In this document: positions 37,199 to 61,710 of the stretch, piece after piece
Layout of the letters: each line of letters begins with the position of its first letter
Position numbering within the stretch: the first letter of the stretch is position 1
NCBI RefSeq assembly: GCF_008087625.1
Contig: NZ_CP042997.1
Coordinates: forward strand, 1,364,001-1,428,000
Direction of reading: 5' to 3'
DNA length: 64,000 nucleotides
Origin: Aquisphaera giovannonii
Lineage (GTDB): Bacteria; Planctomycetota; Planctomycetia; Isosphaerales; Isosphaeraceae
Made by a program: the position numbers and the translations under genes
Notes under the pieces: model-generated
The model's input: only the letters and a program-made list of their open reading frames with translations
Told to the model about the DNA's origin: nothing
The model's database searches: none

Positions 37199-37926
37199 TG
37201 GCCCGGCTCTACCTGTTCGCGGAAGGGCAGACGGAGCAGACCTTCGCGGACACGATTCTGGTGCCGCACCTGGCGCACTTCGGGGTCTATCTCCGGCGTT
37301 CCGTCCTCATCGCGACGGGTCGCAGGCACGGCAGAGTCCATCGCGGCGGAGGCCGCATGTATCTTCCGATGAAGAACGACATCCTGCGGTTCCTCAGGCA
37401 GGAGCGGGGCCAGGATGTTTTCTTCACGACGATGATCGACCTGTATGCAATCCATGCCGACATGCCCGGGCTTGCCGCGGCGGAGCCGCTTCGCCACGAT
37501 CCTCATCGGCGCGTCCGGGAAATCGAGAGATCCTTCGCGAACGACATCGGCGACCCCAGATTCATCCCGTATATCCAGTTGCATGAATTCGAGGCATTCC
37601 TTTTCGCGGGAGTGGAGTCGTTCGGCTATTTCTACGACGGGGCCGAGAAGGCCATCGGGAACTTGAAGGCAATCGCCGATGCCCATGCGAGCCCCGAGCA
37701 AATTGATGACGGCCCGCAGACCGCGCCCTCGAAGCGCATCATCGAGAACCTCCCCGGTTACGAAGGGGCCAAGCCCACGGTTGGACCGCAGGTCGCCGAG
37801 TTGATCGGGCTGGCAACGATCCGGGCGAAGTGTCCCCACTTCGACGGCTGGGTCTCCAGGCTGGAAGCACTTGGCAGACTTGCCCCTGTCCCCCAACTCG
37901 ACAACCCCGCCGTGCCGCCTGCATAA
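37198..37926 (+). CDS. DUF4276 protein, probable TOPRIM-like effector partner (242 aa)
   Basis: The N-terminus ARLYLFAEGQTEQTFADTIL carries the EGxTE block shared by RloB-like TOPRIM proteins. MIDLYAIHADMPG supplies an acidic residue at the expected second strand, and YIQLHEFEAFLF is the hallmark of DUF4276. In TOPRIM folds these acidic groups bind divalent metal for nucleic-acid cleavage; nuclease activity is an inference. It is translationally coupled to the ATPase gene and ends one base before the TetR start at 37928, suggesting a three-gene transcript. Confidence 0.8.
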   Translation: MARLYLFAEGQTEQTFADTILVPHLAHFGVYLRRSVLIATGRRHGRVHRGGGRMYLPMKNDILRFLRQERGQDVFFTTMIDLYAIHADMPGLAAAEPLRHDPHRRVREIERSFANDIGDPRFIPYIQLHEFEAFLFAGVESFGYFYDGAEKAIGNLKAIADAHASPEQIDDGPQTAPSKRIIENLPGYEGAKPTVGPQVAELIGLATIRAKCPHFDGWVSRLEALGRLAPVPQLDNPAVPPA

Positions 37927-44619: not shown

Positions 44620-45378
44620 CTATGGCCGGTGGGAGTTTTCGGCCAGGCAATGGGAGAGGTCCCGAAACGTCCGGAGGTCGCCGAACTCGACCCGTTCCGA
44701 CGGAAGGGCGGCCGTGAGCCAGGACACGGCCCACCCGGCCAGCATCACGAGGACACCGGCGAGGGACCATCCCGGACCCAGGAAGATACCGGCGATCCAG
44801 AGGAGAAAACCGACGAGGAAGGGGCCGCAGGAGGAGATCTCATGCAACGGCGTGCGGACCTCCACCGGCGGCAACGCGTTCGGGGCCAGGCGGGAGATCG
44901 GGCCGAGGAAGACGCGGGGATGATGTCGGGTGTACTCGCGGAGGGGCGTCGAGGGCGAGAGCCCGTCCACGTCGGCCCCCGCGTCCCGGAGCAGCGATCG
45001 AATCGCGAGGAAGGCACCCGCCGGCCGGCACGCCCGGCCCAGGATCGTCAGGGGCCTGATGACCGGCCGCGACCCCCTCGCCGCGATGAGCCCGCAGACG
45101 TCCCGGAGCGTCCGCTCCCGGGCCGGCTCCAGGACGGCTTTCCAGGCCGTATCCGAGAGCCCGAGCCGCCACTCGTCATCGAGCGCACGGCCGAGCCGTC
45201 GCCAGCCGATCAGGTCGCATGCGGATCGCCACGCGTCCACCGTCGTCTCGAAAGTCAACGCCATGGTCGGATCCGCCTCGGGGTCGAACCGGCACTGCTG
45301 GCGATGCGAATCGCGGATCACCTCCAGGACATACTCCGGCGTCGCCGGGACGAGCACGGGCGGGCGATCGTCGTTCAT
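44620..45378 (-). CDS. Membrane protein of a planctomycete-specific family, paralogue 1 (252 aa)
   Basis: The protein opens DDRPPVLVPATPEYVLEVIR and has a soluble N-terminal part of about 160 residues with TFETTVDAWRSACDLIGWRR, AVLEPARERTLRDVCGLI, PAGAFLAIRSLLRDAGADVD and PSTPLREY. Two membrane helices follow (GPFLVGFLLWIAGIFLGPG and GVLVMLAGWAVSWLTAALP), then VEFGDLRTFRDLSHCLAE. A close relative lies at 47250-48023, and the two copies enclose the ATPase/nuclease-like pair. The ATG follows a good GGAGGT. I know this layout from uncharacterised Isosphaeraceae proteins; function unknown. Confidence 0.7.
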   Translation of the reverse strand: MNDDRPPVLVPATPEYVLEVIRDSHRQQCRFDPEADPTMALTFETTVDAWRSACDLIGWRRLGRALDDEWRLGLSDTAWKAVLEPARERTLRDVCGLIAARGSRPVIRPLTILGRACRPAGAFLAIRSLLRDAGADVDGLSPSTPLREYTRHHPRVFLGPISRLAPNALPPVEVRTPLHEISSCGPFLVGFLLWIAGIFLGPGWSLAGVLVMLAGWAVSWLTAALPSERVEFGDLRTFRDLSHCLAENSHRP

Positions 45379-45582
45379 GGCCTGACCTCCAGCCGGGCCG
45401 GTTGGACTTCGGCATGGATGAAGAGTATGTGCCTGAGGTCGCATTCGGCAAGGTCCCGACGGCCGAACAGGAACATCGCGGCGCACGAGAATGGGGACCG
45501 TTACGCCATGCCTCAAGTCGGCTATGATGAGCAGACGATCCGACAACACCGGACCTTAGGGGCGGCGACTCGCTGTCATCGT

Positions 45583-46665
45583 ATGCTCCAACGGCTGAAT
45601 CTGAAGAATTTCACCGTTTTTCAGGACGCCGAGGTTGAATTCGTCCCCGGAATCAATGTCTTCCTCGGCGCGAATGCCACGGGGAAGACGCATGCGATGA
45701 AAGTTGTGTATGCGCTCATCCGGTCCGTCAAGGACTACCATGCAAAGCATGCGTCGCCGACCCGTCGAAGCCGAGGTCTGGAGCCGAAGATTGAGGAAAA
45801 GCTCTCCGCTGTATTTCGCCCGGAGGCCGGAAGCACTGGGAGACTGGTCCGACGCTTCGGAAGCAGTCCAATTGCGGATGTCTCGCTCACCCTGAAAGGT
45901 GCGAAGATCGAGGGCGGGATCGACTTCGAGTCCTTCCACCTGGAAATCCTCGACGATTCCGCCTCATGCCCGGCCTCCCTGTTTCTCCCGGCCCGCGAGG
46001 TCCTCTCGATCTATCCCGGTTTCCTCGCGGCCTACCAGAATCGTGAGCTAGCTTTCGATGAAACCTATTACGACCTCTGCCTGGCGCTGAGCGCATCTCC
46101 GCTGCGCGGTCGTCGAGGCGCTGCGGCCTCGTCGATCCGGGAGCCTCTCGTCGCGTGCCTCGACGCCGAGGTTGTTCTCCGGGGAGATTCATTCTTCGTC
46201 AAATCGGAGGATGATGGAATTGTCGAGGCCCACCTCGTCGCCGAAGGCTACCGGAAGATCGCGACGCTGCTGCATCTGATCGCCAATGGCTCGCTGGCGA
46301 AGGGGAGCGTGCTTTTCTGGGACGAGCCGGAGGCGAACCTGAACCCGAGGCTGACGAAGGTCGTCGCGGACTTCCTGCTCCGGCTCGCGGGTAACGGAAT
46401 CCAGGTCGTCCTCGCGACCCACGATTATCTCCTGACGAACGAATTGTCCCTCCAGGCCGAGTATCAAACCGACGCGGCCCGGCGGTCGCCGATCCGATTC
46501 TTCTCCTTCACGAGAGGCAAGGATCAAAGCGTCGGCGTGCAATGGGGCGCGACGCTGGCCGACCTGGCCGAGAATCCGATCATGGAGGAGTTCCAGGCCC
46601 TCTACGACCGGGAACGGCGCCTGTTCCTGGCCCGCGACGAGGAGCCGGCGGGCCGGGGAGATTGA
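45583..46665 (+). CDS. SMC/ABC-like ATPase (360 aa), first gene of a candidate two-gene nuclease system
   Basis: The chain starts LQRLNLKNFTVFQDAEVEFV, with Walker A FLGANATGKTHAMK (about residues 28-40), Walker B SVLFWDEPEANLNPRLTKVV and the switch VVLATHDYLLTNELS. The middle holds LFLPAREVLSIYPGFLAAYQ, a block common in AAA proteins paired with nuclease-like partners. The ABC signature is weak (VAEGYRKIATLLHLIANGSL). The start at 45583 was chosen because homology begins there; earlier starts add no recognisable sequence. The next gene begins three bases after the stop, so the pair is tightly coupled. No C-terminal TOPRIM is present. Confidence 0.82.
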   Translation: MLQRLNLKNFTVFQDAEVEFVPGINVFLGANATGKTHAMKVVYALIRSVKDYHAKHASPTRRSRGLEPKIEEKLSAVFRPEAGSTGRLVRRFGSSPIADVSLTLKGAKIEGGIDFESFHLEILDDSASCPASLFLPAREVLSIYPGFLAAYQNRELAFDETYYDLCLALSASPLRGRRGAAASSIREPLVACLDAEVVLRGDSFFVKSEDDGIVEAHLVAEGYRKIATLLHLIANGSLAKGSVLFWDEPEANLNPRLTKVVADFLLRLAGNGIQVVLATHDYLLTNELSLQAEYQTDAARRSPIRFFSFTRGKDQSVGVQWGATLADLAENPIMEEFQALYDRERRLFLARDEEPAGRGD

Positions 46666-46668
46666 ACC

Positions 46669-47226
46669 GTGCCGACGGTCATCGAGGAGCGGTTCCTCCG
46701 ATTCGAGTTCTCCGACGATTGGCTGGCCGTCAAGTACGACGACCATCCCGACTATCGGGAGCGGATCGGGGGGTTGCGGGAGACCAAGGCGATCGACCTG
46801 GTGGCGACATTCCGCCGCAACCGCCACACCCTGCACTTCATCGAGGTGAAGGATTTCCGCGGCCACCGCATCGAGAACCGCGAGCGTATCCGGGACGGCG
46901 AGCTGGCGGTCGAGGTCGCCCAGAAGGTCCGCGACACGATCGCCGGCATCATCGCGGCCCATCATCGAGGCAAGGCAGAGACCTGGGGGCCGCACGCTCA
47001 ATGCCTCGTCACTCCGGACCGGCCGGTCAAGGTGGTCCTCTGGCTGGAGGAGGACCTGCCCCACATCCCGCCGGGCCGTCCGCAGAACCGGGCTTCCGTC
47101 CTGACGGACGCCCTCAAGAGAGAGCTGCGATGGCTGACGACCAAGGTCCTGGTCCTCAACATCGCCTCGGGTAGCCTCGACGGCCTCGGCGTCACGAACC
47201 TGCCCGGGGCGGGGCATCAGCCATGA
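46669..47226 (+). CDS. PD-(D/E)XK-like protein (185 aa), partner of the ATPase
   Basis: The GTG at 46669 starts three bases after the ATPase stop. The signature is AIDLVATFRRNRHTLHFIEV continuing KDFRGHR: Asp43, Glu59 and Lys61 in the spacing D-x15-E-x-K of PD-(D/E)XK nucleases, with a hydrophobic strand before E-V-K. The remaining part is alpha/beta (VAQKVRDTIAGIIAAHH, VKVVLWLEEDLPH). I know no named family. Nuclease activity is inferred from the motif alone. The pair with an SMC-like ATPase resembles the logic of two-gene anti-phage systems. Confidence 0.7.
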   Translation: MPTVIEERFLRFEFSDDWLAVKYDDHPDYRERIGGLRETKAIDLVATFRRNRHTLHFIEVKDFRGHRIENRERIRDGELAVEVAQKVRDTIAGIIAAHHRGKAETWGPHAQCLVTPDRPVKVVLWLEEDLPHIPPGRPQNRASVLTDALKRELRWLTTKVLVLNIASGSLDGLGVTNLPGAGHQP

Positions 47227-47249
47227 TGCGGGCCGCCAGCTTGCCCCGC

Positions 47250-48023
47250 TCACTCCTCCAGAACCCAGGCTCCGTCGGCCACGGCGTACGAGAGGTCGCG
47301 GAAGGTCTGCAGGGGGCCGAACTCGACCCACTCGCGGGGATCGGGCGGGACGGTGATCCAAGATCCGACGTACGATACCAGGGCCAGGAGGAGGCCGGCC
47401 ATCATGACGATGGGTGACAGGAACTTCCCCACGAACGCCGTCATGTGGCCGAGGCGGCGCCCGAGGACGGCCGCGTCGTGCCAGGAATAGTTCCGGTGGA
47501 CCAGCACGATGGGGAGTGAGGCCGGGGCCAGGCGGGAGATCGGGCCCTGGAAGACGTCGCGGTGACGGAGGACATACTCGTCCAGCGACGTCGAGGGCGA
47601 GACGCCTTCCACGTCCGCCCCCGCCTCGATGAGCAGGGAGCGAATCGCCAGGAAGGCACCCGCCGGCAGGCAGGGGCGGCCGAGAATCGCGAGCGGCTCG
47701 AGGGCCCGCATCCGCGCACCCGAGGCGATGAACTCGCAGAGCTCACCGAGGGTCCGCTCCCTGGCCGGCTCCAAGACCGCCCGCCAATCCGCGTCCGGGC
47801 GGCCGAGCTGCCAGATGTCGTTCAGGGCTCGCCCGATCCACCGCGACGAGGCGACCAGATCGATCTCCGTCTGCCACTCCGCGACCGTGGTCTCGAACGT
47901 CAACGGGCGGTCCGGCTCCTGACCCGCAAGGCACCTCACGATCCTTCGATGGTCATTGCCGAACACATCGAGGACATACTCCGGCGTCGCCGGGACGAGG
48001 ACGGGCGGTCGATCGTCGCGCAT
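47250..48023 (-). CDS. Membrane protein of the same planctomycete family, paralogue 2 (257 aa)
   Basis: It shares DDRPPVLVPATPEYVLDV, LTFETTVAEWQTEIDL, AVLEPARERTLGELCEFI, PAGAFLAIRSLLIEAGADVE, GPISRLAP and VEFGPLQTFRDLSYAVAD with the protein at 44620-45378. Two membrane helices lie in FLSPIVMMAGLLLALVSYVG and its surroundings. It is convergent with the PD-(D/E)XK-like gene, with only 23 bases between stops. Together the paralogues bracket the ATPase/nuclease-like pair, which may be chance clustering of an expanded family or part of one system. Confidence 0.7.
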   Translation of the reverse strand: MRDDRPPVLVPATPEYVLDVFGNDHRRIVRCLAGQEPDRPLTFETTVAEWQTEIDLVASSRWIGRALNDIWQLGRPDADWRAVLEPARERTLGELCEFIASGARMRALEPLAILGRPCLPAGAFLAIRSLLIEAGADVEGVSPSTSLDEYVLRHRDVFQGPISRLAPASLPIVLVHRNYSWHDAAVLGRRLGHMTAFVGKFLSPIVMMAGLLLALVSYVGSWITVPPDPREWVEFGPLQTFRDLSYAVADGAWVLEE

Positions 48024-48148
48024 GGAGTCATCCTGCGTCCGGAAGGATCGGGGCGCGGCACACTCCGAGGCTACAAATCGGCGAGCTGTCCCGGCAAGGG
48101 CTCGCCGAGCGGTCGCCAGGCTCGCTGGGTTCGGTGAGGCGGGGCGGC

Positions 48149-49423
48149 TCACTCCATCGGCCAGATGCCCTGGGCGCGCAGCGTATTCAGGTCCAGCAGG
48201 CGCGGGCCGGTGGGGTCGTCTGGCCTCAGGCGGGCGGGGTCGAAGAAGCAGGCGAACAGCGACCGCGCGCGGTCGCGGGCGGCCTCGAAGTCGCCGTCGG
48301 AGATCATGGTCGTCTCCAGGTAGTCCCAGGTCCGGGAGCCCCGCGAGGTCTCCCAGGCGACGAAGGCGTGGCCCGGGATGAGCACGAGGCCCGCGTGCAG
48401 CGAGGCGCACTCCAGCAGGCTGGCGAAGAGCACGGTGCCGTCGATGCAGTTGGCCGCCTTCTGCCTCAGCGACTCCCGCGGCAGCCTCGTCCGCTGCGTC
48501 GCCTGCCCGGGCCCGGCGCCGAAGTCGATGATCGAATTGACGTAGGCGATGCCCTCCTGCGCCAGCGTGTCGAAGAGGGCCCTGACCTGGGCGGCCGTCG
48601 CCTCCGGGTCGCGCTCGCCCTGGTAGCCCCAGATCCGCCTCCCGGCGAGCTTCTCCGCGGCCTTGCGGACGATCGCCTGCACCGGCTCGATGTGCGGCGT
48701 GACCCAGGCCCCGTAATACTTCGAAAGGTCCCTCCGCGTGCCCGTGGACGGGTCGGCCACGGAGTTGAAGCTCGACGTGCGGGCCAGCATCAGCAGGCTG
48801 TGCGTGTCGTGCGACTCGATGAGGCTGGACCAGTTCGGGTTGCGCGTCCGCGCGTCCTCGATGGAGGCGAAGATCTCGACGCGGACCTGGAGGGTAGCCC
48901 GCTGGACCTGGACGATCCTCCGGGCCTGCTCGGGCAGCAGCGACGGCAGCATCGGGATGACCTTCGGCTCGCGATCGCCGGGGCGGAGCTCGACGGTCTT
49001 GATGGCCCGGGCCGAGAGCCCCTCGATGTGGGCGCTGACGCAGACCCGCCGCCACTCGAACGACTCGTTCGTGATGGACACGGTCAGCAGCGGATCGGTC
49101 TCGGGATCGAGCAGGTGATAGATGCCGGTGGGGACGGGCTTGAGCCGGACCATCGTCTCCACGCGGAGCCCCGTCGTCTCCGGGCCGAGCAGCAGGCCCA
49201 TCGCCCTGCTCGGCTCCCCTGCCCCTGGCTGCCGCTCCGCCCGTCGGGCTGCGTATTCACCCTCGATGTTTCGCAGGCTTGCCTCGGCCTCGGCCAGCGA
49301 ATCCAGGAGTGAGTCGTCCGGCGGGATCGCCAGCGACTCGAGGATCGCGGCGTGGAGGCCGCGGACCAGCCGGGACTGGTCCTCCAGCTCGCGGAGCAAC
49401 TCGTCGATCGGTCGTTGGCTCAT
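48149..49423 (-). CDS. Transglutaminase-like protein (424 aa), downstream of the CHAT-STAND genes
   Basis: The N-terminal 70 residues are a charged coiled-coil-like segment (IDELLRELEDQSRLVRGLHA, DSLAEAEASLRNIEGEYAAR). The middle is beta-rich (LLTVSITNESFEWRRVCVSA). The C-terminal part has a papain/transglutaminase-like triad: Cys in KAANCIDGTVLFASLLE, His in LIPGHAFVAWET and Asp in TWDYLETTMI. There is no signal peptide, so it acts in the cytoplasm. The ATG is seven bases after the stop of the larger gene at 49431, so they share a transcript. A second protease-type domain next to CHAT proteins suggests a proteolytic cascade; that is inference. Confidence 0.72.
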   Translation of the reverse strand: MSQRPIDELLRELEDQSRLVRGLHAAILESLAIPPDDSLLDSLAEAEASLRNIEGEYAARRAERQPGAGEPSRAMGLLLGPETTGLRVETMVRLKPVPTGIYHLLDPETDPLLTVSITNESFEWRRVCVSAHIEGLSARAIKTVELRPGDREPKVIPMLPSLLPEQARRIVQVQRATLQVRVEIFASIEDARTRNPNWSSLIESHDTHSLLMLARTSSFNSVADPSTGTRRDLSKYYGAWVTPHIEPVQAIVRKAAEKLAGRRIWGYQGERDPEATAAQVRALFDTLAQEGIAYVNSIIDFGAGPGQATQRTRLPRESLRQKAANCIDGTVLFASLLECASLHAGLVLIPGHAFVAWETSRGSRTWDYLETTMISDGDFEAARDRARSLFACFFDPARLRPDDPTGPRLLDLNTLRAQGIWPME

Positions 49424-49430
49424 GGTCGAC

Positions 49431-52400
49431 TCACGGGCCTCCGCGGGATGCCTGGGTAGGCTCCGCCGATTCGAGGGCTTCCCGGCCCGGCAACGTCCCC
49501 CACCGGGCCTTGAGGTCGGATCGGACCTGCTGCCATTCCTGGACCTCGAGGACGCGGTAGGTCCCCTTGTCCTCCAACTCCAGCCCCGTGAGGGCCCGGG
49601 TCCAGAGCTCGATGCCCGCCTGATCATCCTTCAGGCTGTGCCGGGCGACGGGCCAGATCCTCGCGGTCCTGTCCCAGCTCCCCGTGAGGACCGCCTTCCC
49701 GTCGCGGCGATACGCGACGGAGCAGACCGTGGCCTCGTGCCGGAACGGCGGGCCGACAGGCTTGCCGGTCGCAATGTCCCAGAGCCGGGCCGAGCCGTTC
49801 TGATCGCCGGTCAGCAGCGTCTCCCCGTCGGGGCTGAATGCGACGGACCAGACCGAGCAGGGATGCTGGATCGGGGTGCCGATGGGCCTGGCCGTCGCCA
49901 CGTCCCACAGGCGTGCGTAACCGTCGTCGCACGCGGTCGCCAGGATCGACCCATCCCGATTGTAGGCGACCGAGAAGACCGAGATCGGGTGGCGGAGCGG
50001 CGGCCCGATGGGGCGGAGCGTGCCGACATCCCATACCTGTACGACGCCGCTGTAGTCGGCCGTCGCGAAGCTCCCGCCGCTCGGGTGGAAGGCGATCCCC
50101 CAGACCTGCGACGCCAGCGACGCCGGTTCGGCGACGCCTCGTCCTTGGGCGACGTCCCAGAGATGAGCCTTTCCGCCCACGGTGCCGGTGGCTACATACT
50201 TGCCGTCGGGGCTGAAGGCCCCGGACATCACCGCGGTTCCGTGTCGGAGTGGCGGGCCGATCGGACTTCGCGTGGATGCGTCCCAGATCCGGATCGACTT
50301 GTCGCTGCCGCCGGCGAGGAACCTATCTCCTCCCGGATCGAACGCGACTATGTTCACCTCGTCATCAAACTTCAGGGGGCTGCCGCGCAGGGACCCGGAA
50401 GTCGTATCCCAGATTCGCACCGACTTGTCGCTGCCGCCGGTAACCATCGACCGGCCATCCGGGCTGATCGCCGCGGATCGCACCCAGTCCCCATGGTCAA
50501 AGACCTTCTCCCCATCGACGATCTGGAGGTTCCATATCCTGGCCGTCTTGTCGCCGCTCCCGGTCAGGATCTGCGAGCCGTCCGGACGGAATGCGACGGC
50601 CGGAACCCATGTCTGATGCCGGATCGGCGCCCCGCGAGGCCGGCCCGTCGTCGCGTCCCAGAGGCGGGCGTACCCGTCGAGGTGGCCCGACAGGATGAGG
50701 CGCCCGTCGGGGCTGAATGCGACGGCGACGACCGCCGACCTGGGCTGGATGATCTCCCGGACGAGGCTGCCCGTCGCGACATCCCAGATGCGGACTGCCG
50801 AGTCGTATCCGCCCGTCGCGCACGCCCGGCTATCCGGGCTGAATGCAACCGCGGAGACGACCTCGGAATGGTTGAGCCCCTGCACGGGGCGGGGCTGGGC
50901 GGCTTCGAGGTCCCAGAGTTGAGCTTTCCGTTCGGCGTAGCCGAGGAGGAGCCACTTCCCATCGCGGCTCAACGCCGCCGAGGTTACGTGCCCCTCCGGC
51001 TTGATCCGCTTGTCGAGCGGCTGCCCTGTGGCCGCATGCCATGACCGTACTTCCTCGTTGTAGCTCGTCGTCACCATCAGGGAATTGTCCCAGCTGAAGG
51101 TGACCGTGTTCGTGAAGTTCTCCTGGTGCTTTATGGGAGTCCATGCGCTTGCCCGCTCGCCCGTGCCCGCGTCCCACAATCGGATCTCGCCATCCTGGCA
51201 GCATGTGGCCAGATACTCGCCGTCTGGTCGGTAGGCCACGGCGCTGACGGTGTCGGGATGTTCCAGCGGCTTGCCGCGCGGCAAGCCCGTGGCCACGTCC
51301 CACAATCGCGCCGTCTTGTCGAAGCCGCCTGTCAACGCCGTCGCCCCATCGGGGCTGAACGCAACGGCTCGGACGCCACCGTCATGACGGAAGATTGCCT
51401 CGAGGGGCGTGAGTCGAGACTGCCACGCGGCCAGGTTCGCCAGGGTCACTCGGCGGAGGCCTTTCTCGTCCGGGGGGGTGAGCTTGAGGCTGCGTGCCAG
51501 CCAGAGCAGCCCGCGGTCAACCTCGCCTCCCTCGCAGAGCTTCGAGCCGCGATCGAACGCGAGGGCCGCGGAGGTCATCTGGAACGCGCGGCTCCTTGCG
51601 TCCGCGAGCCTCCGGCTGTCCTCGGCGAACTGCTGGCTCCGCCTGGCGGTGCCGGCCTGCTGGAAGGCGAAGAGGGCCAGGGAGAGCATGGCCGCGGCCA
51701 GCGTGAGGGACCCGGCCGTCGCCAGGACCAGCCGGCGGAACCGGGCTCGCCGGGCCCCTTCCTGGCCCCATTCGGCGGCCACCCTGGCCAGCGCGTCGTG
51801 GCCGAGCCGGATGTAGCGGAGCGGCTTCTCACCCTCGATGCGGATCTCATCCTCGCGGAGCAGGCGGACGCGGACCGCTTTCTCCAGCACCTCATCGAAC
51901 GAGGTCGGCCGGGCCCATCGCGCCGCCAGGCCGTCTCGCAGGTGCAGGGAGGTCGTGAGGGTGCCGTCGGGCTGGCGGTTGCAGAGCCGGCCGTAGAGGT
52001 CCTTGAAGGCACGGCGATCCTCGGCCGAGAGGCTCATGACGCGCCGCAGCGCGTCCTCGGCGAAGGCGCGGAGGCCCCCCTCGACCCCGCGGATCGCGTT
52101 CAGGTCATCCTCGGTGACGACCCCGGCCGAGACCGTGTCCTCCTTCTCGCGCTCGTAGAGCTGGGTGCAGATCACCTGGACCAGCGGCAGGATGCCGTCC
52201 TGGTGGTCCCGGCGCAGGTCCAGCACCGCGTCGGCGATCCGCTCCGGGATTCCCTCGGCGTAGCGGAAGCCGTACGAGGGCTCTCGCGTCGGTCTCTTGA
52301 TCGCCTCGATCAGGGCGGGCCGGGAGAAGTCGCGGAGCAAGTCGTCCCGAACGCCGACGAGGTCGCGGCGCCCCTCCCGCAGATGGTCGAGGAGCCGCCC

Positions 52401-54290
52401 GTAGTACTCCGTCCGCAGGGCCACGATCAGCTTCACGTCGGCCCGCACGTCGACCAGCCCCTGGATCATCCGGAGGGCCTGGTCGCGGTTCGCCTCGTCC
52501 TGCTTCGTGCGAGCCAGGGTGAACACCTCCTCCGCCTGGTCGAGCACCAGGACCAGCGCGTGGGGCAGTCGCCCCGCCATGCGGGCCAGGATCGCGGCCA
52601 GGAGGTTCGGGTCCGACGCCAGGGACTCGCGCAACCTCGCGTAGTCGGCCTTCGCGCCGATCGCCTCGTCGATCACCGGGCGGAGGTCCACCTCCAGCGG
52701 CCCGCCGGCCGGCGCCTCGAATCGCAGCGGCGTCTCCGAGAGGTCCAGCAGGGCGCGAGCGAACTGGCCGACGAGGTCCTTCGCGGTGGACAGGATCAGC
52801 AGGCTGCCGTCCGCCCGCCGGAAGAAGCGATACCCGCTGCACTCGCCTTCCAGGTAGGGGATGACGCCGGCGCGGAGGAAGGAGCTCTTCCCGACGCCGC
52901 TCTCCGCGTGGAGGATCAGGACGCGGGTGTCGGGCCGGTCGAGCGTCGCGGCGAAGCGGACGACGTCGGCGTCGCGGCCGGTGAACAGGGCCCGGTCCCC
53001 CTCGTCGTAGAAGCCCAGCGACGGATAGGGCCTCCCGGGCAGGACGGCCGGGTCGGTGGCCGAGTCGCCCTTCGCGGCGAGCCGGGGGACGAGCCCCGCG
53101 TCGGGCCCGGCCTCGGGGAGCGTGGCCGCCCCCAGCAAGGCCCCGGCGGCCTGGACATCCTCGCGGATCGCCATCGGTTCGCAGGGCGGCTCCGCCCCCG
53201 GGGCGACGCGGATCTCGGGCGGGCAGTGGGCGCCGTAGAGCAGGCCCAGCGGCGCCCGCTCCAGCCGCAGCTCGTGGAGCAATTGGCCGAGGGGCTTGCC
53301 GTCGCGGAGGAAGCCGCGGAGGAAGGCCAGGCCGAACTCGTTGGCGAAGTTGTCGATCGTCTGCCGCTCGGTGGCGATCGCCCCGGCGAACCCGAAGTGA
53401 TGCAGCACGTCGAGGAAGGAGCCGCCGGAGCCGGACTCGGCGGTCTGGCAGGCGTTGAGGAACGCCAGCATCCCCTCCGGCTTCTCGCGCGAGGCGTAGC
53501 TGCTCAGCAGATTCCGCAGGTCGGCGGGCCGGACCTTCTCCGCGTCGCCCAGTCGGAGGTATTCGGGCGTCGCGTGGCCCAGCCAGTACAGGAGCCGAGG
53601 ATAGCCTTTCCGCAGTTCGGCCCGGAGGTCTTTCAGCGAGCCGACCGGCGTCAACCGGGCTTCCGCGAGGAAGCGGTCGAGCTCGTCCCTCTGCTCCTCC
53701 TTCAGGTTCGCCCGCACGCTCGGGTCGATGACCGCGATGACGCGCGGGGCCTCCCAGGAGGGGGACCGCCTCAGCGGCTCGACCCTGCGCCCGGTCGTCA
53801 GGGCATAGCGGATGGCCCAGAAGGGCCTCCACCGCTCCGCCCCTCGGCCCGCCCGGAATTCGGCCTCATGGTCCTCGGGATAGTCGTCGTAGACGAGGTT
53901 CCACGGCACCGAGAGATACGACGCCGGGTCCTCCGAGAGCTCCTCGACGACGACCTCCAGCCCGAGCGAGCCCGACCGATCCCTGAGGTCGACCAGCCAG
54001 TTGCGGACGCTCCTGGCCGTGTCCTCGCCCCCCGGCAGCAGCCGGTTGTAGAGCTCGAACCCCGCCTCGACAACCTTGAAGGCCGGCTCCCACGGCATCG
54101 GCTGCGGGCCGGCCGTGTTGAGCGCGTGGACCAGCACTTCCAGCGCCTTGCGGGCCCGGGCGGCCGCGTCGCGGAGCTCGGCCAGCTCGGCGCCGGCGAT
54201 GGCATAGGGCCTGAAGAACCCGCCGCGCGAGGACCAGACGAGCTCGACCCGATCGGCGTGGTTGGTGACCTGGCAGATGACCTCGGACAT
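49431..54290 (-). CDS. CHAT protease - STAND NTPase - WD40 protein, paralogue B (1619 aa)
   Basis: Residues 1-110 are an N-terminal domain (SEVICQVTNHADRVELVWSS). The CHAT domain spans about 115-360, with catalytic His239 in LLYWLGHATPEYL and Cys281 in AFLNACQTAES. A STAND ATPase follows: FTGRDADVVRFAATL, Walker A HAESGVGKSSFLRAG, Walker B ALVLVLDQAEEVFTL, then VALRTEYYGRLLDHLREGRR. After a single membrane helix (LVLATAGSLTLAAAMLSLAL) come 14 WD40 repeats such as VRAVAFSPDGATALTGGFDK and TARLWDVATG, enough for two seven-bladed propellers. This is the architecture of a ligand-activated protease with WD40 sensor. It stands directly upstream of the transglutaminase-like gene and 249 bases downstream of its paralogue. 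Confidence 0.88.
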   Translation of the reverse strand: MSEVICQVTNHADRVELVWSSRGGFFRPYAIAGAELAELRDAAARARKALEVLVHALNTAGPQPMPWEPAFKVVEAGFELYNRLLPGGEDTARSVRNWLVDLRDRSGSLGLEVVVEELSEDPASYLSVPWNLVYDDYPEDHEAEFRAGRGAERWRPFWAIRYALTTGRRVEPLRRSPSWEAPRVIAVIDPSVRANLKEEQRDELDRFLAEARLTPVGSLKDLRAELRKGYPRLLYWLGHATPEYLRLGDAEKVRPADLRNLLSSYASREKPEGMLAFLNACQTAESGSGGSFLDVLHHFGFAGAIATERQTIDNFANEFGLAFLRGFLRDGKPLGQLLHELRLERAPLGLLYGAHCPPEIRVAPGAEPPCEPMAIREDVQAAGALLGAATLPEAGPDAGLVPRLAAKGDSATDPAVLPGRPYPSLGFYDEGDRALFTGRDADVVRFAATLDRPDTRVLILHAESGVGKSSFLRAGVIPYLEGECSGYRFFRRADGSLLILSTAKDLVGQFARALLDLSETPLRFEAPAGGPLEVDLRPVIDEAIGAKADYARLRESLASDPNLLAAILARMAGRLPHALVLVLDQAEEVFTLARTKQDEANRDQALRMIQGLVDVRADVKLIVALRTEYYGRLLDHLREGRRDLVGVRDDLLRDFSRPALIEAIKRPTREPSYGFRYAEGIPERIADAVLDLRRDHQDGILPLVQVICTQLYEREKEDTVSAGVVTEDDLNAIRGVEGGLRAFAEDALRRVMSLSAEDRRAFKDLYGRLCNRQPDGTLTTSLHLRDGLAARWARPTSFDEVLEKAVRVRLLREDEIRIEGEKPLRYIRLGHDALARVAAEWGQEGARRARFRRLVLATAGSLTLAAAMLSLALFAFQQAGTARRSQQFAEDSRRLADARSRAFQMTSAALAFDRGSKLCEGGEVDRGLLWLARSLKLTPPDEKGLRRVTLANLAAWQSRLTPLEAIFRHDGGVRAVAFSPDGATALTGGFDKTARLWDVATGLPRGKPLEHPDTVSAVAYRPDGEYLATCCQDGEIRLWDAGTGERASAWTPIKHQENFTNTVTFSWDNSLMVTTSYNEEVRSWHAATGQPLDKRIKPEGHVTSAALSRDGKWLLLGYAERKAQLWDLEAAQPRPVQGLNHSEVVSAVAFSPDSRACATGGYDSAVRIWDVATGSLVREIIQPRSAVVAVAFSPDGRLILSGHLDGYARLWDATTGRPRGAPIRHQTWVPAVAFRPDGSQILTGSGDKTARIWNLQIVDGEKVFDHGDWVRSAAISPDGRSMVTGGSDKSVRIWDTTSGSLRGSPLKFDDEVNIVAFDPGGDRFLAGGSDKSIRIWDASTRSPIGPPLRHGTAVMSGAFSPDGKYVATGTVGGKAHLWDVAQGRGVAEPASLASQVWGIAFHPSGGSFATADYSGVVQVWDVGTLRPIGPPLRHPISVFSVAYNRDGSILATACDDGYARLWDVATARPIGTPIQHPCSVWSVAFSPDGETLLTGDQNGSARLWDIATGKPVGPPFRHEATVCSVAYRRDGKAVLTGSWDRTARIWPVARHSLKDDQAGIELWTRALTGLELEDKGTYRVLEVQEWQQVRSDLKARWGTLPGREALESAEPTQASRGGP

Positions 54291-54303
54291 GGACCGACGC
54301 CCT
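54121..54303 (-). repeat. 5' segment of paralogue B almost identical to that of paralogue A
   Basis: These 183 bases, covering the first 56 codons and 13 bases of leader, match 59098-59280 with two mismatches by eye, while the remainder of the genes has diverged clearly. This points to recent gene conversion or constraint on the leader and N-terminus. Confidence 0.65.
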
Positions 54304-54539
54304 CGCTTCGAGCACCCGGGAGATCGGCCTCGGCCGACGGATCGGGAGATGAGCGCCATCCATCCTAGCGGAAGGGCTCCGGACGAAATAGCAATTTTAC
54401 GCAATCGGGGCCGTCGGCCTGGATCGACCTCCGGCCTGCGGTGAGCTCAGGCCAGGAGGATGGGCTCGTCGACGCTTCCAAGCCGCGTCGTTCCGCACGG
54501 ACCTGGATTCGAAGCCAAACGCGTGCGCGTCGCCTTGCC

Positions 54540-57500
54540 TCATCGCGTCGCGGGATCGTGGGGGCGGCGCCACTCCGTGTAGGGCAGGCTTTCCATCACC
54601 CCGTCCTCCCGGAGGTTCAGTCCGGTCAGGGCCCGGATCCGAGACGCGACCTGGTCGGCGTCGCCGTCGAGGGAGGCGAGCGGTCGCTTCCAGAGCCGGG
54701 CGGTCTCATCGAGGAAGCCCATCGTCAGGATGCTCCGACCATCCGGGCTGATGCGCAGGGATGCGATGGCGAAGTCGTGCACCATGGGCGCGTCGATCGG
54801 CTTGCCGGTCGAGATGTCCCAGAATTGCAGGATCCCGCCGACGCTGCCCGTCGCGATCGCCTGCATGCCGGGGTCGAAGGCGACAGCCCAGACACTCGTG
54901 TCGGTGCGGAACTTTTGGATCTCCTTCGTTTCCTCCCCGTACGTCCACACCCGCGCCCACAAATCGTTTGAGCAGAGGACGAACTTCCGGCCATCGGGAC
55001 TGAATGCGGCCGCCACGACTCCCCCGGAATAGGTGACCGGCTCACGCGAGATCTCTCCGGCGTCCAGGTCCATCGTCCGAACGAATCCGTCACCGCCTCC
55101 CAGCAGGATGAGCCGCCGCTCCGGATGGATCGCAATCGCCCATATGAGCGAATCAAACTCCCGCGAGGCTATCGGCCTACAATCCGGCATCCCCCACACC
55201 CGTATCCGCCGGTCGAGGCAGCTCGTCGCAAGGATCCGTCCGTCGCGACTGATCGACGCGCCGATGATCCTGCTTGGGTGCGGCAGGGGAGCAGTCAACG
55301 GCTTCCGCGTGCGGCCATCCCAAACGACGAGTTCGTTCTCCGATGGAGCGAGGAGCGCCATCCCGCCTCCGGTGGGACGCGAGTCGAGCGGTCCCCGGTC
55401 CCGATCGGGCTCCCGGTCCAACGGCGAGCCATCCTCGGAGTTCCAGGATCGGACGTCGCCACGACGGGTGACCGTCACGATCGCCTTGCCATCCGGTGCA
55501 AAAGCCGCATCGCGGAGCTCGCCGGGATCGCTAAGCCCGACTCCCGCATCGCTCGCCGCGCGCCATTTCCAGAGGCGGGCTGTCCTATCGCCACTTCCGG
55601 TGAGGATGGTGTCGCCGAGCGGGCTGAAGGCGACCGAGGTGACCCATCCCTGATGCTTGAGTGAGTCGCCGGCCGCCCGTCCCGAGGCCGCCTCCCAGAA
55701 CCGCACGGCGCCGTCGTTCGAGCCGGTCGATATGTACCTACCGTCGGGGCTGAAGGCGACCGCGTAGACCGGCCCCGGATGGGGGCCGAACTCGCGGATC
55801 AGACGACCCGATCGGACCTCCCACAGGCTGGCATTCCTGCCCATGGTGCCCACCAGCAGGGACTGCCCGTCGGGGCCCAGGGCGAAATCACGGACCTGGG
55901 CACCCGGGGCGATCTTCGGGTACGTCATCGGCCTCCCGGTCGATGCATCCCAGAATCGCACCTCGGTGTCCGCCGTCACGGCCAGCAGGCCGTCGCGACT
56001 GAAGTCTACACATGATATTGTGCTGGAGTGAATCATCGTTCCGACGACGGTCCTTCGCTCCAGGTTCCAGAGCCTGGCCCTATTGTCGTCGGAGGCCGTC
56101 AGCAGGCTCCGGTCGTCCGGGGAGAACGTGATGGCCCAGATCCCTCCCGGATGCCTCAACGCATCCCCGATGAGCCGCTGGGACGATACATCCCAAAGCC
56201 GTACGGACCCGTCATTGCAGCCGGTCGCGATCGTCCGGCCGTCGTGGCTGAATGCGACGGACTCCACGCTGTCCGGGTGGAGCATCGGCTCGCCGAGGGG
56301 TTCGCCCGTCGAGGCGTCCCAGATCCGGGCGGTGCGGTCGGTGCTGCCCGTGAGGACGGACTTCCCGTCCGGGTGGAAGCTGACCCCTTTCACGTCGAGC
56401 TCGTGCGGGAGGACCTGGCGGAGCTGCGAGAGGCGGGTGTGCCAGGCCCCGAGGTTGGCCCGGATGACGCGCTCCAGCGGCGGCGAGTCGCGGCCGACGA
56501 TCTGGAGGCTCCGCGCCAGCCAGGTCAGGCCGCTCGCCACGTCCTCCTGCTCGCAGAGGGCCAGCCCTCGATCGAGCGCGAGGTTGGCCGCGCCGATCTG
56601 GGCCTCGCGTCGGCGTGCGCGGGCCTCGGCGGCGCCCCGCCACGCGACGACGGCCAGGAGGAGCATCAGGGCGGCCAGCGCCAGGCTCCCGGCGATCGCC
56701 CCGATCGCCCTGCGGAACCGGTCCCTGCGGCCCCGCTCTTCCTCCCACGCCGCGGCGACGTCCGCCAGCGCATCGTGGCCGAGCCGGATGTAGCGGCGGG
56801 GCCGATCCCCCTCGATCCGGATCTCGTCCTCTCGCAGCAGCCGGGCCGACTTCGCCGCCTCGAGCACCCGGGCGAACGGCGTCGGCCGGCCCCACCTCGC
56901 TTCGAGGCCCGCCCGCGACGCCAGCCAGGTCGTCAGGGTGCCGTCGGCCTGCCGGTTGTAGAGCCCGCCCAGCAGATCCCTGAATGCGAGGCCATCCGCC
57001 TTCGAGAGGCGCATCGACCGCTCGATGGCGTCCTCGGCGAAGGCCCGGAGGCCTCCCCGGACTCCCTTGATGGCGGCGAGGTCCTGGGAGGTGATGACGC
57101 CGGCGGAGACCGTGTCTTCCTTCTCGCGCTCGTAGAGCTGGGTGCAGATGACCTGCACGAGCGGCAGGACGCTGTCCTGGTTCTCCGACCGCAGCGCCAG
57201 GACGCCGTCGGTGATCTCCTCCGGCACGCCGTCGGCGTAGCGGAATCCATACCGCGCCTCGGCCGTCGGCCGCTTGATCGCCTCGATGACGTCGGCCCGC
57301 GAGAAGTCGCGGAGCAGGTCGTCCCGGACGCCGACGAGGTCGCGACGCCCCTGCCTCAGGTGGTCGAGGAGCCGCCCGTAGTACTCGGTCCGCAGGGCGA
57401 CGATCAGCTTCACGTCGGCCCGCAGATCCACCAATCGCTGGATCATCCGGAGGGCGCGATCGCGGTCCTCCCGCTCCTCCTTCGTGCGGGCGAGGGTGAA

Positions 57501-59267
57501 GAGCTCCTCGGCCTGGTCCAGCACCAGGACCAGGACATGCGGCAGGCGTGCCGACATCCGCGAGAGGAGGTCCGCCAGCAGGTCCTCGTCGGCTCGCAAC
57601 GCCGCGTCGACCTGGCCGGAACCGGCCTCCGCCCCGACGGCCTCGTCGAGCACCGGGCGCAGGTCGATGACGATGTCCTCGCCGTGCGGCGATCGGAATC
57701 GCAGCGGGTCCTCGGCCATCTCGATCAGGGCCCGCGCGAGCTGGCCCACCGGGTCCTTCGCGGGCTGGACGATGAGCAGGCCCCCGTCGGGACGCCGGAA
57801 GAACCTGTAGCCGACGCACTCGCCCTCCAGGTAGGGGACGACGCCGGCGCGGAGGAAGGAGCTCTTCCCGACGCCGCTCTCCGCATGGAGGACGAGGATC
57901 CGCGTGTCAGGGCGGTCCAGCGTCGCGGCGAAGCGGACCGCGTCGGCGTCGCGGCCGGTGAACAGGGCACGGTCTCCCTCGTCGTAATAGCCGAGCGAGG
58001 GATAGGGCTTCTCGGGCAATGGCGGCCCGGGGGGCGTCGCCCGCGATGTCGTCACGGGCCGGTGGCCGAGGTCGGGGATGGGCCATGCGGCGGGCGTCGT
58101 CGTGGCCCCGAGGACCGTGCCGGCCACGGCGGCGCCCTCGCCGATCGGCATCGCTTCCGCGCGGGGCTCGCCCGCCGGGAGGACGCGGATCTCGGGCGGG
58201 CAGTGGGCGCCGTAGAGCAGGCCCAGCGCCGGGTTGGAAAGCCGGAGCTCGTGCAGGAGCCGCCCCAGCGGCTTGCCCTCGCGGAGGAAGCCGCGGAGGA
58301 AGGCCAGGCCGAACTCGTTGGCGAAGTTGTCGATCGTCTGCCGCTCGGTGGCGATGGCGCCGGTGAAGCCGAAGTCGTGCAGGACGTCGAGGAACGAGCC
58401 GCCGGAGCCGGCCTCGGCGGTCCGGCAGGCGTTGAGGAACGCGAGCATCCCCTCGGGACGCTCGCGCGAGGCGTAGCCGCTGAGGAGGCTCCGCAGGTCG
58501 CCGGGGCGGACCCTCTCGGTGTCGCCCAGGTGCAGGCAGTCCGGGGTGGCGTGGCCGAGCCAGTAGAGCAGCCTCGGGGGGCCCTTCCGCAACTCGGCCC
58601 GGAGCTCCTTCAGCGAGCCGACCGGCGCCAGCCCCTCCTCGGCGAGGAACCGGTCCAGGGCCGCCCCCTGGTCGGCCCCGAGGTTCTCGCGGACCTTCGC
58701 GTCGATCACCGCGACGACCCGCGGCCTGGTCCAGCCCGGGAGCCGCTTCAGCGGCTCGACGCGGCGCCCGGTCGTCAGGTTGTAGCGGATGGCCCAGAAG
58801 GGCCGCCATCGCTCCGCCCCGACGCCGGACCGGAACTCGGACTCGTGGTCCTCGGGGAAGTCGTCGTACACCAGGTTCCACGGGACCGAGAGGTAGGCCG
58901 CCGGGTTGCCCGAGAGCTCCTCGACGACGACCTCCAGCTCGATCGGGCCCGGACCGTCCCCGAGGCCGACCAGCCATTCGCGCACGCGACTCGCCGTGTC
59001 GTCGCCGCCGGGCAGGAGGCGGTTGTAGAGCTCGAAGCCCGCCTCGACCAGCCCGAAGGCCGGCTCCCAGGGCATCGGCCCCTGTCCCGATGAGTTCAGC
59101 GCGTGGACCAGCACCTCCAGCGCCTTGCGGGCCCGGGCGGCCGCGTCGCGGAGCTCGGCCAGCTCGGCGCCGGCGATGGCATAGGGCCTGAAGAACCCGC
59201 CGCGCGAGGACCAGACGAGCTCGACCCGATCGGCGTGGTTGGTGACCTGGCAGATGACCTCGGACAT
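54540..59267 (-). CDS. CHAT protease - STAND NTPase - WD40 protein, paralogue A (1575 aa)
   Basis: Same order as the gene downstream: CHAT with His239 (LLYWLGHATPDCL) and Cys281 (AFLNACRTAEAG), STAND ATPase with Walker A HAESGVGKSSFLRAG (Lys468) and Walker B VLVLVLDQAEELFTL, one membrane helix (AIGAIAGSLALAALMLLLAV) and 14 WD40 repeats. Two of the later repeats are degraded (the ninth lacks its GH-like turn). The linker after the CHAT domain differs most between the two proteins, as do the propellers, which suggests different sensed ligands with the same output. It heads the minus-strand run down to 48149 and probably drives it from a promoter in the 403-base gap upstream. Confidence 0.88.
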   Translation of the reverse strand: MSEVICQVTNHADRVELVWSSRGGFFRPYAIAGAELAELRDAAARARKALEVLVHALNSSGQGPMPWEPAFGLVEAGFELYNRLLPGGDDTASRVREWLVGLGDGPGPIELEVVVEELSGNPAAYLSVPWNLVYDDFPEDHESEFRSGVGAERWRPFWAIRYNLTTGRRVEPLKRLPGWTRPRVVAVIDAKVRENLGADQGAALDRFLAEEGLAPVGSLKELRAELRKGPPRLLYWLGHATPDCLHLGDTERVRPGDLRSLLSGYASRERPEGMLAFLNACRTAEAGSGGSFLDVLHDFGFTGAIATERQTIDNFANEFGLAFLRGFLREGKPLGRLLHELRLSNPALGLLYGAHCPPEIRVLPAGEPRAEAMPIGEGAAVAGTVLGATTTPAAWPIPDLGHRPVTTSRATPPGPPLPEKPYPSLGYYDEGDRALFTGRDADAVRFAATLDRPDTRILVLHAESGVGKSSFLRAGVVPYLEGECVGYRFFRRPDGGLLIVQPAKDPVGQLARALIEMAEDPLRFRSPHGEDIVIDLRPVLDEAVGAEAGSGQVDAALRADEDLLADLLSRMSARLPHVLVLVLDQAEELFTLARTKEEREDRDRALRMIQRLVDLRADVKLIVALRTEYYGRLLDHLRQGRRDLVGVRDDLLRDFSRADVIEAIKRPTAEARYGFRYADGVPEEITDGVLALRSENQDSVLPLVQVICTQLYEREKEDTVSAGVITSQDLAAIKGVRGGLRAFAEDAIERSMRLSKADGLAFRDLLGGLYNRQADGTLTTWLASRAGLEARWGRPTPFARVLEAAKSARLLREDEIRIEGDRPRRYIRLGHDALADVAAAWEEERGRRDRFRRAIGAIAGSLALAALMLLLAVVAWRGAAEARARRREAQIGAANLALDRGLALCEQEDVASGLTWLARSLQIVGRDSPPLERVIRANLGAWHTRLSQLRQVLPHELDVKGVSFHPDGKSVLTGSTDRTARIWDASTGEPLGEPMLHPDSVESVAFSHDGRTIATGCNDGSVRLWDVSSQRLIGDALRHPGGIWAITFSPDDRSLLTASDDNRARLWNLERRTVVGTMIHSSTISCVDFSRDGLLAVTADTEVRFWDASTGRPMTYPKIAPGAQVRDFALGPDGQSLLVGTMGRNASLWEVRSGRLIREFGPHPGPVYAVAFSPDGRYISTGSNDGAVRFWEAASGRAAGDSLKHQGWVTSVAFSPLGDTILTGSGDRTARLWKWRAASDAGVGLSDPGELRDAAFAPDGKAIVTVTRRGDVRSWNSEDGSPLDREPDRDRGPLDSRPTGGGMALLAPSENELVVWDGRTRKPLTAPLPHPSRIIGASISRDGRILATSCLDRRIRVWGMPDCRPIASREFDSLIWAIAIHPERRLILLGGGDGFVRTMDLDAGEISREPVTYSGGVVAAAFSPDGRKFVLCSNDLWARVWTYGEETKEIQKFRTDTSVWAVAFDPGMQAIATGSVGGILQFWDISTGKPIDAPMVHDFAIASLRISPDGRSILTMGFLDETARLWKRPLASLDGDADQVASRIRALTGLNLREDGVMESLPYTEWRRPHDPATR

Positions 59268-59670
59268 GGATCGACGCCCTGCTCGCGATGGAAGCCCGAA
59301 GTCCTCGGACGGGATGCGACGGATTCTACCCGATGATCAGCTCGACGGCGCATCCGCGCAAGAGAGGACGGCCGGCGGGGCCGGATGACGGCGGGACGAG
59401 CGGGATCCTAGGCTCGATGTGTACGCACGGCCCGGGGAGACGAGGCCCGCCGGCCCGGCCACCGGGCCTCGCCGGCGGTCGCATCGAGTCGTCGCGCGTC
59501 GGACGGCGCGGTTTCTCGCTAAGTATGGGGCATATTATCCCGTTTGCGGGAATGACTGAAAGAACAGTCCTCGGTGCTCGGTGATACCCGCTGCGCCGGG
59601 CGGTGTTGAATCGGTTGCAGGGCACGAGGAGGGGCGGGAAACAGGTCGGGGCACGTCGGGGGATTCCTTC
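59268..59670. other. 403-base divergent intergenic region
   Basis: Upstream region of the CHAT-STAND operon (minus) and the DUF1549 gene (plus). A G+C-rich dyad-like stretch lies at about 59430-59480 (GGCCCGCCGGCCC...CGGGCC). An A+T-richer patch at 59515-59580 containing AAGTATGGGGCATATTATCC is the likeliest promoter area. No gene is supported here. Confidence 0.4.
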
Positions 59671-61710
59671 ATGACTACGGGTCGCGGCGATCGTCGGGGA
59701 TGGAGGGGGCCTGCGGGGATGCTCGCGGTCGCCGTGGCGCTGGGCGTCGCGGGCTGGGTCGTCGAGGCGAGGGCCTGGGCGAGGCAGGAGAAGGGGGACG
59801 CGACCGGGGCGGCGAAGCGATCGGAGAAGCCCGCGGCAACCCCCGAGGCCCCCGCCCCGGGGCTCATGGAGAGGGAGGCCGAGAAGCAGGAAGAGGCCGC
59901 CGCGATGCCGGCGATGCCCGGCGACGACGGATCGCGGGAGGTGCTGAAGGCACTCCGCGAGCTGGGCGGGGCCGCGCGGAAGGACGCGGCGCGGGCGAGG
60001 CAGGCGGCGGCGAGGGCCCCGCTGCCGAAGAGGCCGGCGAAGACGGTCACGCCGCCGACGGTCACGCCGGCGGATCTCGACGCGATGCTCGCGAAGTACC
60101 TGAAGGAGAAGGACCCGAAGGTCGAGCCGGCGCCGCCGACGAGCGACGTGGAGTTCGTCCGGCGGGCCTACCTCGACCTGGCGGGGACGCCGCCGACGCC
60201 GCGGCAGGTGGCGGAGTTCGTGGGCAGCCGTGCGAAGGACAAGCGGGCGAGGCTCATCGACGCGCTGCTGGAGAGCCCGGAGATGGCCCGGAACTGGGCC
60301 CGGTACTGGCGGGACGTGATCAAGTTCCACGCGACGAACCAGAACCCCGGGCAGGTCCGCTACGACCTGCTGGAGGAATGGCTCGAGGCGCAGTTCCGCG
60401 CGAAGCGTCCGTGGGATGAGATCGTCTCGGCCATGATCACGGCGACCGGCCGCGTGGACGAGAACGGCGCGGTGGCGTTCCCGCTGGCCAGCGAGGCCAA
60501 GCCCGTGGAGATGGCCGGCGAGGTCTCCCGGCTGTTCCTGGGCGTCCAGATCCAGTGTGCCGAGTGCCACGACCACAAGACCGACTCCTGGAAGCGGCAG
60601 CAGTTCCACGAGCTGGCCGCCTTCTTCTCCGGCACGCGCTCGCGGAGGGTCGACAAGGCCATGCCGGGCCAGCCGGCGGTCTTCAGCGTCGAGACGACCC
60701 CGCGGGCCCGCTACGCGATGCCCGACCTCGCCGACCCCAAGAAGCAGATCCCGGTGGCGCCGAGGTTCTTCCTGGCCTCGTCCCGGGAGGAGGTCCCGAG
60801 CCTCCCGGAGACGCTCGCCCCGGCCGACCGGCGGGCCCTCGGGGCCTCGTACGTGACGGGCCAGGACAACCCGTGGTTCGCCCGGGCGTTCGTGAACCGG
60901 ACGTGGTTCGTGCTCATGGGCGAGTCGTTCTACGACGTGGTGGACGACATCGGGCCGGAGCGGGAGCCCAAGGCGAGGGAGGTCATCGAGACCCTGGCCG
61001 ACCAGTGGCAGAAGGGCGGGTACGACGTCCGCTGGCTGCTGCGGACGATCGCCAACACGCAGGCCTACCAGCGTCGGGTGCGCTCGACGGCCAACCCGGC
61101 CGGCAAGACGGCGTTCGCGGCCAATTGCCCCAGCCGGCTCCGCGCCGACCAGATCGCCGACGCCCTCGTCGAGGCGCTCGGCCTGCCGGAGGACCTCCGT
61201 CCGGTGCCGCCCCCCGGGGCCGCGAAGGGGAAGGGCGCGGGCAGGGCGCAGGGCGGGAAGATGCCCGTGGCGAAGGTCAAGGGCGCCGCCAAGGTCGCGG
61301 AGGCGACCGGGCTGGGCGGGGCCCCGGTCCAGGGGAAGGGCCCGAACAAGGCCGTCCGCGCCGGCGGCGCGCGGGCCCTCTTCGGGGCGCTGTTCTCGAT
61401 GGACCCCTCGGCCGCGCCGGACGAGATCCTCAGCACGATCCCGCAGGCCCTCTTCCTGATGAACGGGCCGATCGTCCAGAACCGGACCCAGGCCCGGCCG
61501 GACACCGCCCTGGGCGAGATCCTCGCCACCTCCTCGAGCGACCGCGAGGCCCTCAACCGGCTCTACCTGCGGACGCTCTCCCGCCAGCCGAACGCGAAGG
61601 AGGTGGAGGCCTGCGCCGCCTATCTCGCGCGAGCCGGGAACCGCGTCGAGGCCTTCGAGGACATCTACTGGGCACTCGTCAACACCACGGAGTTCGTCTC
61701 GCGGCGTTGA
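59671..61710 (+). CDS. DUF1549/DUF1553 cytochrome-like protein (679 aa)
   Basis: A planctomycete-type exported protein. The start at 59671 gives a membrane/signal segment (MLAVAVALGVAGWVVEARAW). Residues about 130-300 are DUF1549 (VEFVRRAYLDLAGTPPTPRQ, RNWARYWRDVIKFH, LEEWLEAQF), ending with a CxxCH motif in IQCAECHDHKTDSWKRQQFH. DUF1553 follows (NPWFARAFVNRTWFVLMGES, DVRWLLRTIANTQAYQRR, LRADQIADALVEALGLP, ALNRLYLRTLSRQPNAKEVE). Its DUF1501 partner lies 275 bases downstream on the same strand, the usual pairing. Substrates are unknown. Confidence 0.9.
   Translation: MTTGRGDRRGWRGPAGMLAVAVALGVAGWVVEARAWARQEKGDATGAAKRSEKPAATPEAPAPGLMEREAEKQEEAAAMPAMPGDDGSREVLKALRELGGAARKDAARARQAAARAPLPKRPAKTVTPPTVTPADLDAMLAKYLKEKDPKVEPAPPTSDVEFVRRAYLDLAGTPPTPRQVAEFVGSRAKDKRARLIDALLESPEMARNWARYWRDVIKFHATNQNPGQVRYDLLEEWLEAQFRAKRPWDEIVSAMITATGRVDENGAVAFPLASEAKPVEMAGEVSRLFLGVQIQCAECHDHKTDSWKRQQFHELAAFFSGTRSRRVDKAMPGQPAVFSVETTPRARYAMPDLADPKKQIPVAPRFFLASSREEVPSLPETLAPADRRALGASYVTGQDNPWFARAFVNRTWFVLMGESFYDVVDDIGPEREPKAREVIETLADQWQKGGYDVRWLLRTIANTQAYQRRVRSTANPAGKTAFAANCPSRLRADQIADALVEALGLPEDLRPVPPPGAAKGKGAGRAQGGKMPVAKVKGAAKVAEATGLGGAPVQGKGPNKAVRAGGARALFGALFSMDPSAAPDEILSTIPQALFLMNGPIVQNRTQARPDTALGEILATSSSDREALNRLYLRTLSRQPNAKEVEACAAYLARAGNRVEAFEDIYWALVNTTEFVSRR

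Follow-up and report, generated by a model that had tools for sequence, protein, structure and literature searches.

HEC-02 in Aquisphaera giovannonii, a candidate anti-phage operon joining an SMC/OLD-like ATPase to a predicted PD-(D/E)XK nuclease

Two adjacent genes in a 64,000 nucleotide stretch of the Aquisphaera giovannonii genome (contig NZ_CP042997.1, positions 1,364,001 to 1,428,000; hereafter the window) encode an ATPase and a small protein, and raise the question of whether they form a defence system and, if so, of what kind. The ATPase gene (45583..46665, plus strand, 360 aa) runs from an ATG at 45583 to a stop codon ending at 46665. It is followed after a gap of 3 nt by the co-oriented gene for the small protein (46669..47226, plus strand, 185 aa), which starts with a GTG at 46669 and whose stop codon ends at 47226. 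The sequence GGGGAG at 46655..46660 on the plus strand, 8 nt before this GTG, is a plausible ribosome-binding site by sequence reading alone. An earlier note, made from the DNA letters, had given the coordinates, strand, motifs and three-base spacing of the pair, and direct reading of the sequence found all of these as described. The codon-position GC of both open reading frames is of the coding type. Third-position GC of the ATPase gene is 0.76, below that of most surrounding genes, which fits a recent acquisition without proving one.

By its profile matches the pair belongs to HEC-02 and does not represent a novel type of system. The abbreviation HEC denotes Hma-embedded candidate, and HEC-02, Hma-embedded candidate 2, was first found embedded in Hma systems; its founding description is reportedly the Payne 2024 preprint. 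Searched against PADLOC-DB 2.0.0, the ATPase matched the HEC-02 ATPase model PDLC04213 (HEC-02A; E 1.1e-93, residues 1-346) and the small protein matched the HEC-02 effector model PDLC04228 (HEC-02B; E 3.8e-27, residues 4-166). Both proteins are therefore covered over most of their length, and the two genes stand in the same order as in HEC-02. The title of the earlier note had described the system as not matching a named family, a claim that fails because each of the two is matched by an HEC-02 model of that database. Whereas the family was described from Hma systems, the window copy lies in a variable segment of its own; no Hma embedding was found among the genes scanned, and in the subset of window genes scanned with Pfam those flanking the pair are not of Hma type. 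Among the papers searched, none linked HEC-02 or DUF6661 by name to defence, and none gave activity data or a mechanism for HEC-02. HEC-04 and HEC-06 have been reported to be antiviral (PMC12111858; PMC12988326).

The small protein carries the motif D43-x15-E59-V60-K61. Across 60 relatives E59 and K86 are invariant, while D24, D43, K61 and D89 each reach at least 90% conservation, and because of this conservation the D43/E59/K61 motif is not a chance occurrence. Pfam gave no significant match to the small protein of the window; among the relatives, 18 of 60 matched DUF6661 and six of 60 matched the nuclease-related domain NERD. The AlphaFold2 model of the protein had a mean pLDDT of 92.9 and a pTM of 0.90. 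By VIA-align its best match was a domain of a protein deposited as Upx (Z 7.5 over 136 residues, 3.8 A), and further matches included the FokI cleavage domain (Z 5.9), BstEII (5.7), Card1 (5.6), Cdn1 (5.4), HamA (5.3) and Can2 (5.0); these Z values are modest, 7.5 at best, and a few unrelated folds are mixed into the same range. Because Foldseek gave no match to the model at E <= 0.001, the fold is assigned from the VIA-align list together with the conservation. A search of solved structures with the small-protein sequence, alone and as a profile, also gave no match. This evidence supports the prediction of a PD-(D/E)XK nuclease, DUF6661/NERD-like, with a putative active site of D43, E59 and K61. 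The restriction-endonuclease-like core that had been proposed for this protein is thus upheld by the structure prediction, with its high pLDDT and restriction-enzyme-domain matches, and by the conserved residues. TOPRIM and HNH readings of the small protein were both rejected, since neither Pfam nor PADLOC matched either domain and conservation and fold point to PD-(D/E)XK.

The larger protein contains a Walker A motif (GANATGKT), a Walker B motif (LFWDEPEANLNP), a signature-like AEGYRK, the switch residue H280 and the sequence WDEPEANLNP, and 17 columns of its alignment are invariant in 46 relatives. Pfam assigned it to AAA_21/AAA_15, and profile matches to AriA in PADLOC-DB were weak. Its AlphaFold2 model (mean pLDDT 91.8) aligned over its whole length (residues 1-360; Z about 20, Foldseek E 5.7e-13) with PtuA as present in Septu and retron complexes. 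Matches to PtuA and to SMC and Rad50 heads all fell at Z 18-21, and because the SMC and Rad50 heads score the same as PtuA, the likeness to PtuA is at the level of the fold only. Motifs, domains and model together support an assignment as an SMC/OLD-like ABC ATPase head, in agreement with the SMC/ABC-like ATPase that the earlier note had called.

The pairing itself is conserved outside the genome of the window. Its absence elsewhere, or a predicted structure lacking the restriction-endonuclease-like core, would have counted against the earlier reading, and neither was seen. A nuclease homologue was present at 75 of 83 loci of relatives from many phyla, most of which had been found through the ATPase, and the two-gene order in relatives is that of the window pair. 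In a set of 59 genomes related to that of the window, the same seven carry the ATPase and the nuclease, adjacent in each; one of the seven (G017) has a stop inside the ATPase and a short match to the nuclease. Where the nuclease appeared to be missing, loci mostly held remnants of it, ended with the contig, or encoded divergent proteins keeping the ExK motif, and partner swapping by the ATPase as a general idea was rejected on these grounds. At two loci (L124 and L125) no nuclease was found beside the ATPase. At a third (L052:6059-8686) no nuclease was found by the ATPase and a TIR-domain-like ORF lies downstream, where a change of partner is possible. Distances in the ATPase and nuclease trees correlate with r 0.65, a value reached by 0 of 5000 permutations (permutation maximum 0.18), and agreeing trees can also come from joint transfer without physical contact. 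The distribution is patchy and mobile: the pair is plasmid-borne in Paracoccus, Pseudanabaena and Comamonas, and one Sulfuricystis plasmid carries the ATPase without an intact partner. Strong amplification was seen in Candidatus Thiomargarita nelsonii (G073), with 12 nuclease and 18 ATPase matches, several of them broken.

The surroundings of the relatives are rich in defence genes. Their 110 flanking ORFs matched 38 PADLOC families at E <= 1e-25, a figure in which some proteins count through more than one model and which includes one tandem HEC-02 copy, while 119 control ORFs, taken from randomly chosen regions in ten of these genomes, matched one family; the enrichment is qualitative, because the controls represent 10 genomes and not every flanked genome and the families listed are the best 25. 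Among those best 25 of 38 were BrxC, PglX, type I-III methyltransferases, MADS2 and ThsB, and genes of BREX, RM and Thoeris systems stand in the flanks. In a Sandaracinaceae genome (L025:1259-10265) the HEC-02 relative lies between PglX and BrxC, all on one strand, inside a BREX operon. The neighbourhood of defence genes that had been suggested for the pair is therefore seen in the survey of its relatives.

In the window, HEC-02 sits between two paralogous genes of unknown function, outside any known defence operon. These homologous copies are on the minus strand at 44620-45549 (309 aa) and at about 47250-48020. Comparison by blastn with a genome of the same genus (G002) placed the pair in a variable segment (45406..59887) that also holds the second copy of the 309-aa gene, a 492-aa ORF and two CHAT/nSTAND-type genes. 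The backbone is syntenic on both sides, the segment is replaced at the same place in G002 by unrelated DNA, and G002 carries its own HEC-02 elsewhere. At the corresponding place G002 has one copy of the flanking gene, and the two copies in the window against one in G002 may be a trace of the way in which the segment came to be inserted. The two CHAT/nSTAND-type genes are large and in tandem (49431-59267, minus strand). The first has nSTAND1 and WD40 by Pfam as well as the CHAT-like motifs GHAT and NACQTA, and the second starts with the same residues as the first. Of the CHAT-STAND neighbours named in the earlier note, the STAND part is thus supported by Pfam (nSTAND1, WD40), and the CHAT part is read from sequence motifs only. 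The DUF4276 pair that had been noted to the left is confirmed as HEC-01 (36095-37926; PADLOC E 3.9e-121 for the ATPase and 6.3e-73 for the DUF4276 protein). It ends 7.66 kb left of HEC-02 and is missing, too, from its syntenic position in G002.

We consider there to be a good likelihood that HEC-02, a candidate anti-phage operon, acts through an SMC/OLD-like ABC ATPase gating a PD-(D/E)XK nuclease. The pair is probably anti-phage, and we infer both this activity and its targeting of nucleic acid. The ATPase would oligomerise and bind the nuclease, keeping it inactive or correctly placed, until an infection cue, either a phage protein or a DNA structure, altered the state of the ATPase. The nuclease would then cut nucleic acid through a metal-dependent centre formed by D43, E59 and K61, with K86 helping. 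The substrate could be phage DNA, as has been proposed for Septu, or a molecule of the host, whose cleavage would arrest growth of the infected cell as PARIS does.

Two versions of this scheme follow from the choice of target. In an abortive version like that of PARIS, the ATPase would sequester a toxic nuclease and free it on sensing a phage protein, harming the host and halting the spread of the phage. We regard this as a real possibility, somewhat short of an even chance. Gene order and design are the same as in AriA/AriB (PMC12409363), and the weak AriA profile matches of the ATPase agree with it. Moreover, the nuclease is often broken or lost beside an intact ATPase, and an intact nuclease without the ATPase was seen in none of the 13 genomes searched with both proteins. 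Such loss hints at a costly effector, but the way in which loci were collected biases the asymmetry: most were located by their ATPase, which makes it in part an ascertainment effect, and frameshifts in draft genomes add noise to it. Against the abortive version, the HEC-02 effector is not TOPRIM, and in structure the ATPase is matched best by PtuA and by the SMC and Rad50 heads. These matches, with PtuA aligned over residues 1-360, speak for direct restriction of the Septu or Rad50 kind, in which the ATPase would load the nuclease on invading DNA and the DNA would be cut without host suicide; the matches of the nuclease to DNA-cleaving domains of restriction enzymes point the same way. However, the pair in the window comes with neither a DNA-recognition domain nor a methyltransferase partner, which leaves discrimination from host DNA unexplained under direct restriction, a version that we likewise judge conceivable without being the probable outcome. 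A DNA-repair or plasmid-maintenance (addiction) module is improbable, for although some plasmid copies lie near partition and toxin-antitoxin genes and the fold is SMC/Rad50-like, the patchy presence (seven of 59 relatives), BREX embedding and defence-enriched flanks are usual for defence systems but not for core repair.

Taking HEC-02 as an anti-phage operon, we suggest, more speculatively and with considerable doubt, that it may represent a third mechanistic solution, distinct from the HNH-based Septu and the TOPRIM-based PARIS. In this scheme an SMC/OLD-like oligomer would silence a NERD/DUF6661-type nuclease until a phage trigger arrives, and the active site of that nuclease would be extended, with the invariant helix residue K86 and the conserved D24.

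Several known systems share parts of this design. Septu (PtuA/PtuB) and the effectors of retrons Ec78/Eco7 resemble HEC-02 in combining an SMC-like ATPase with a small nuclease, and the ATPase fold aligns end to end. PtuB, however, is an HNH nuclease, whereas the HEC-02 effector, with no HNH match in Pfam or PADLOC, is a predicted PD-(D/E)XK enzyme, and HEC-02 differs from the retron systems in being without the retron RT. PARIS has the same succession of an ABC ATPase gene (AriA, the sensor) and a nuclease effector gene, and AriA bears a weak profile resemblance to the HEC-02 ATPase, but AriB is a TOPRIM tRNase and the HEC-02 effector has a different fold, with no TOPRIM match in Pfam or PADLOC. 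HEC-01, in the same genome segment, is likewise a two-gene combination of ATPase and effector, although its ATPase is of another subfamily and its effector is DUF4276. The same architecture is that of the OLD-type ABC ATPases paired with PD-(D/E)XK nucleases, which PMC12839542 describes as a class of auxiliary BREX effectors; because of that description, the architecture is already known as a class. The L025 relative of HEC-02 likewise lies inside a BREX operon, and the identity of that class with HEC-02 is one that we infer. The present analysis gives the candidate family HEC-02 a planctomycete-like copy, predicts the active site and brings together a broad set of relatives. Set beside Septu and PARIS, HEC-02 makes it possible to test directly whether nuclease folds as unrelated as HNH, TOPRIM and PD-(D/E)XK can be gated by one ATPase scaffold.
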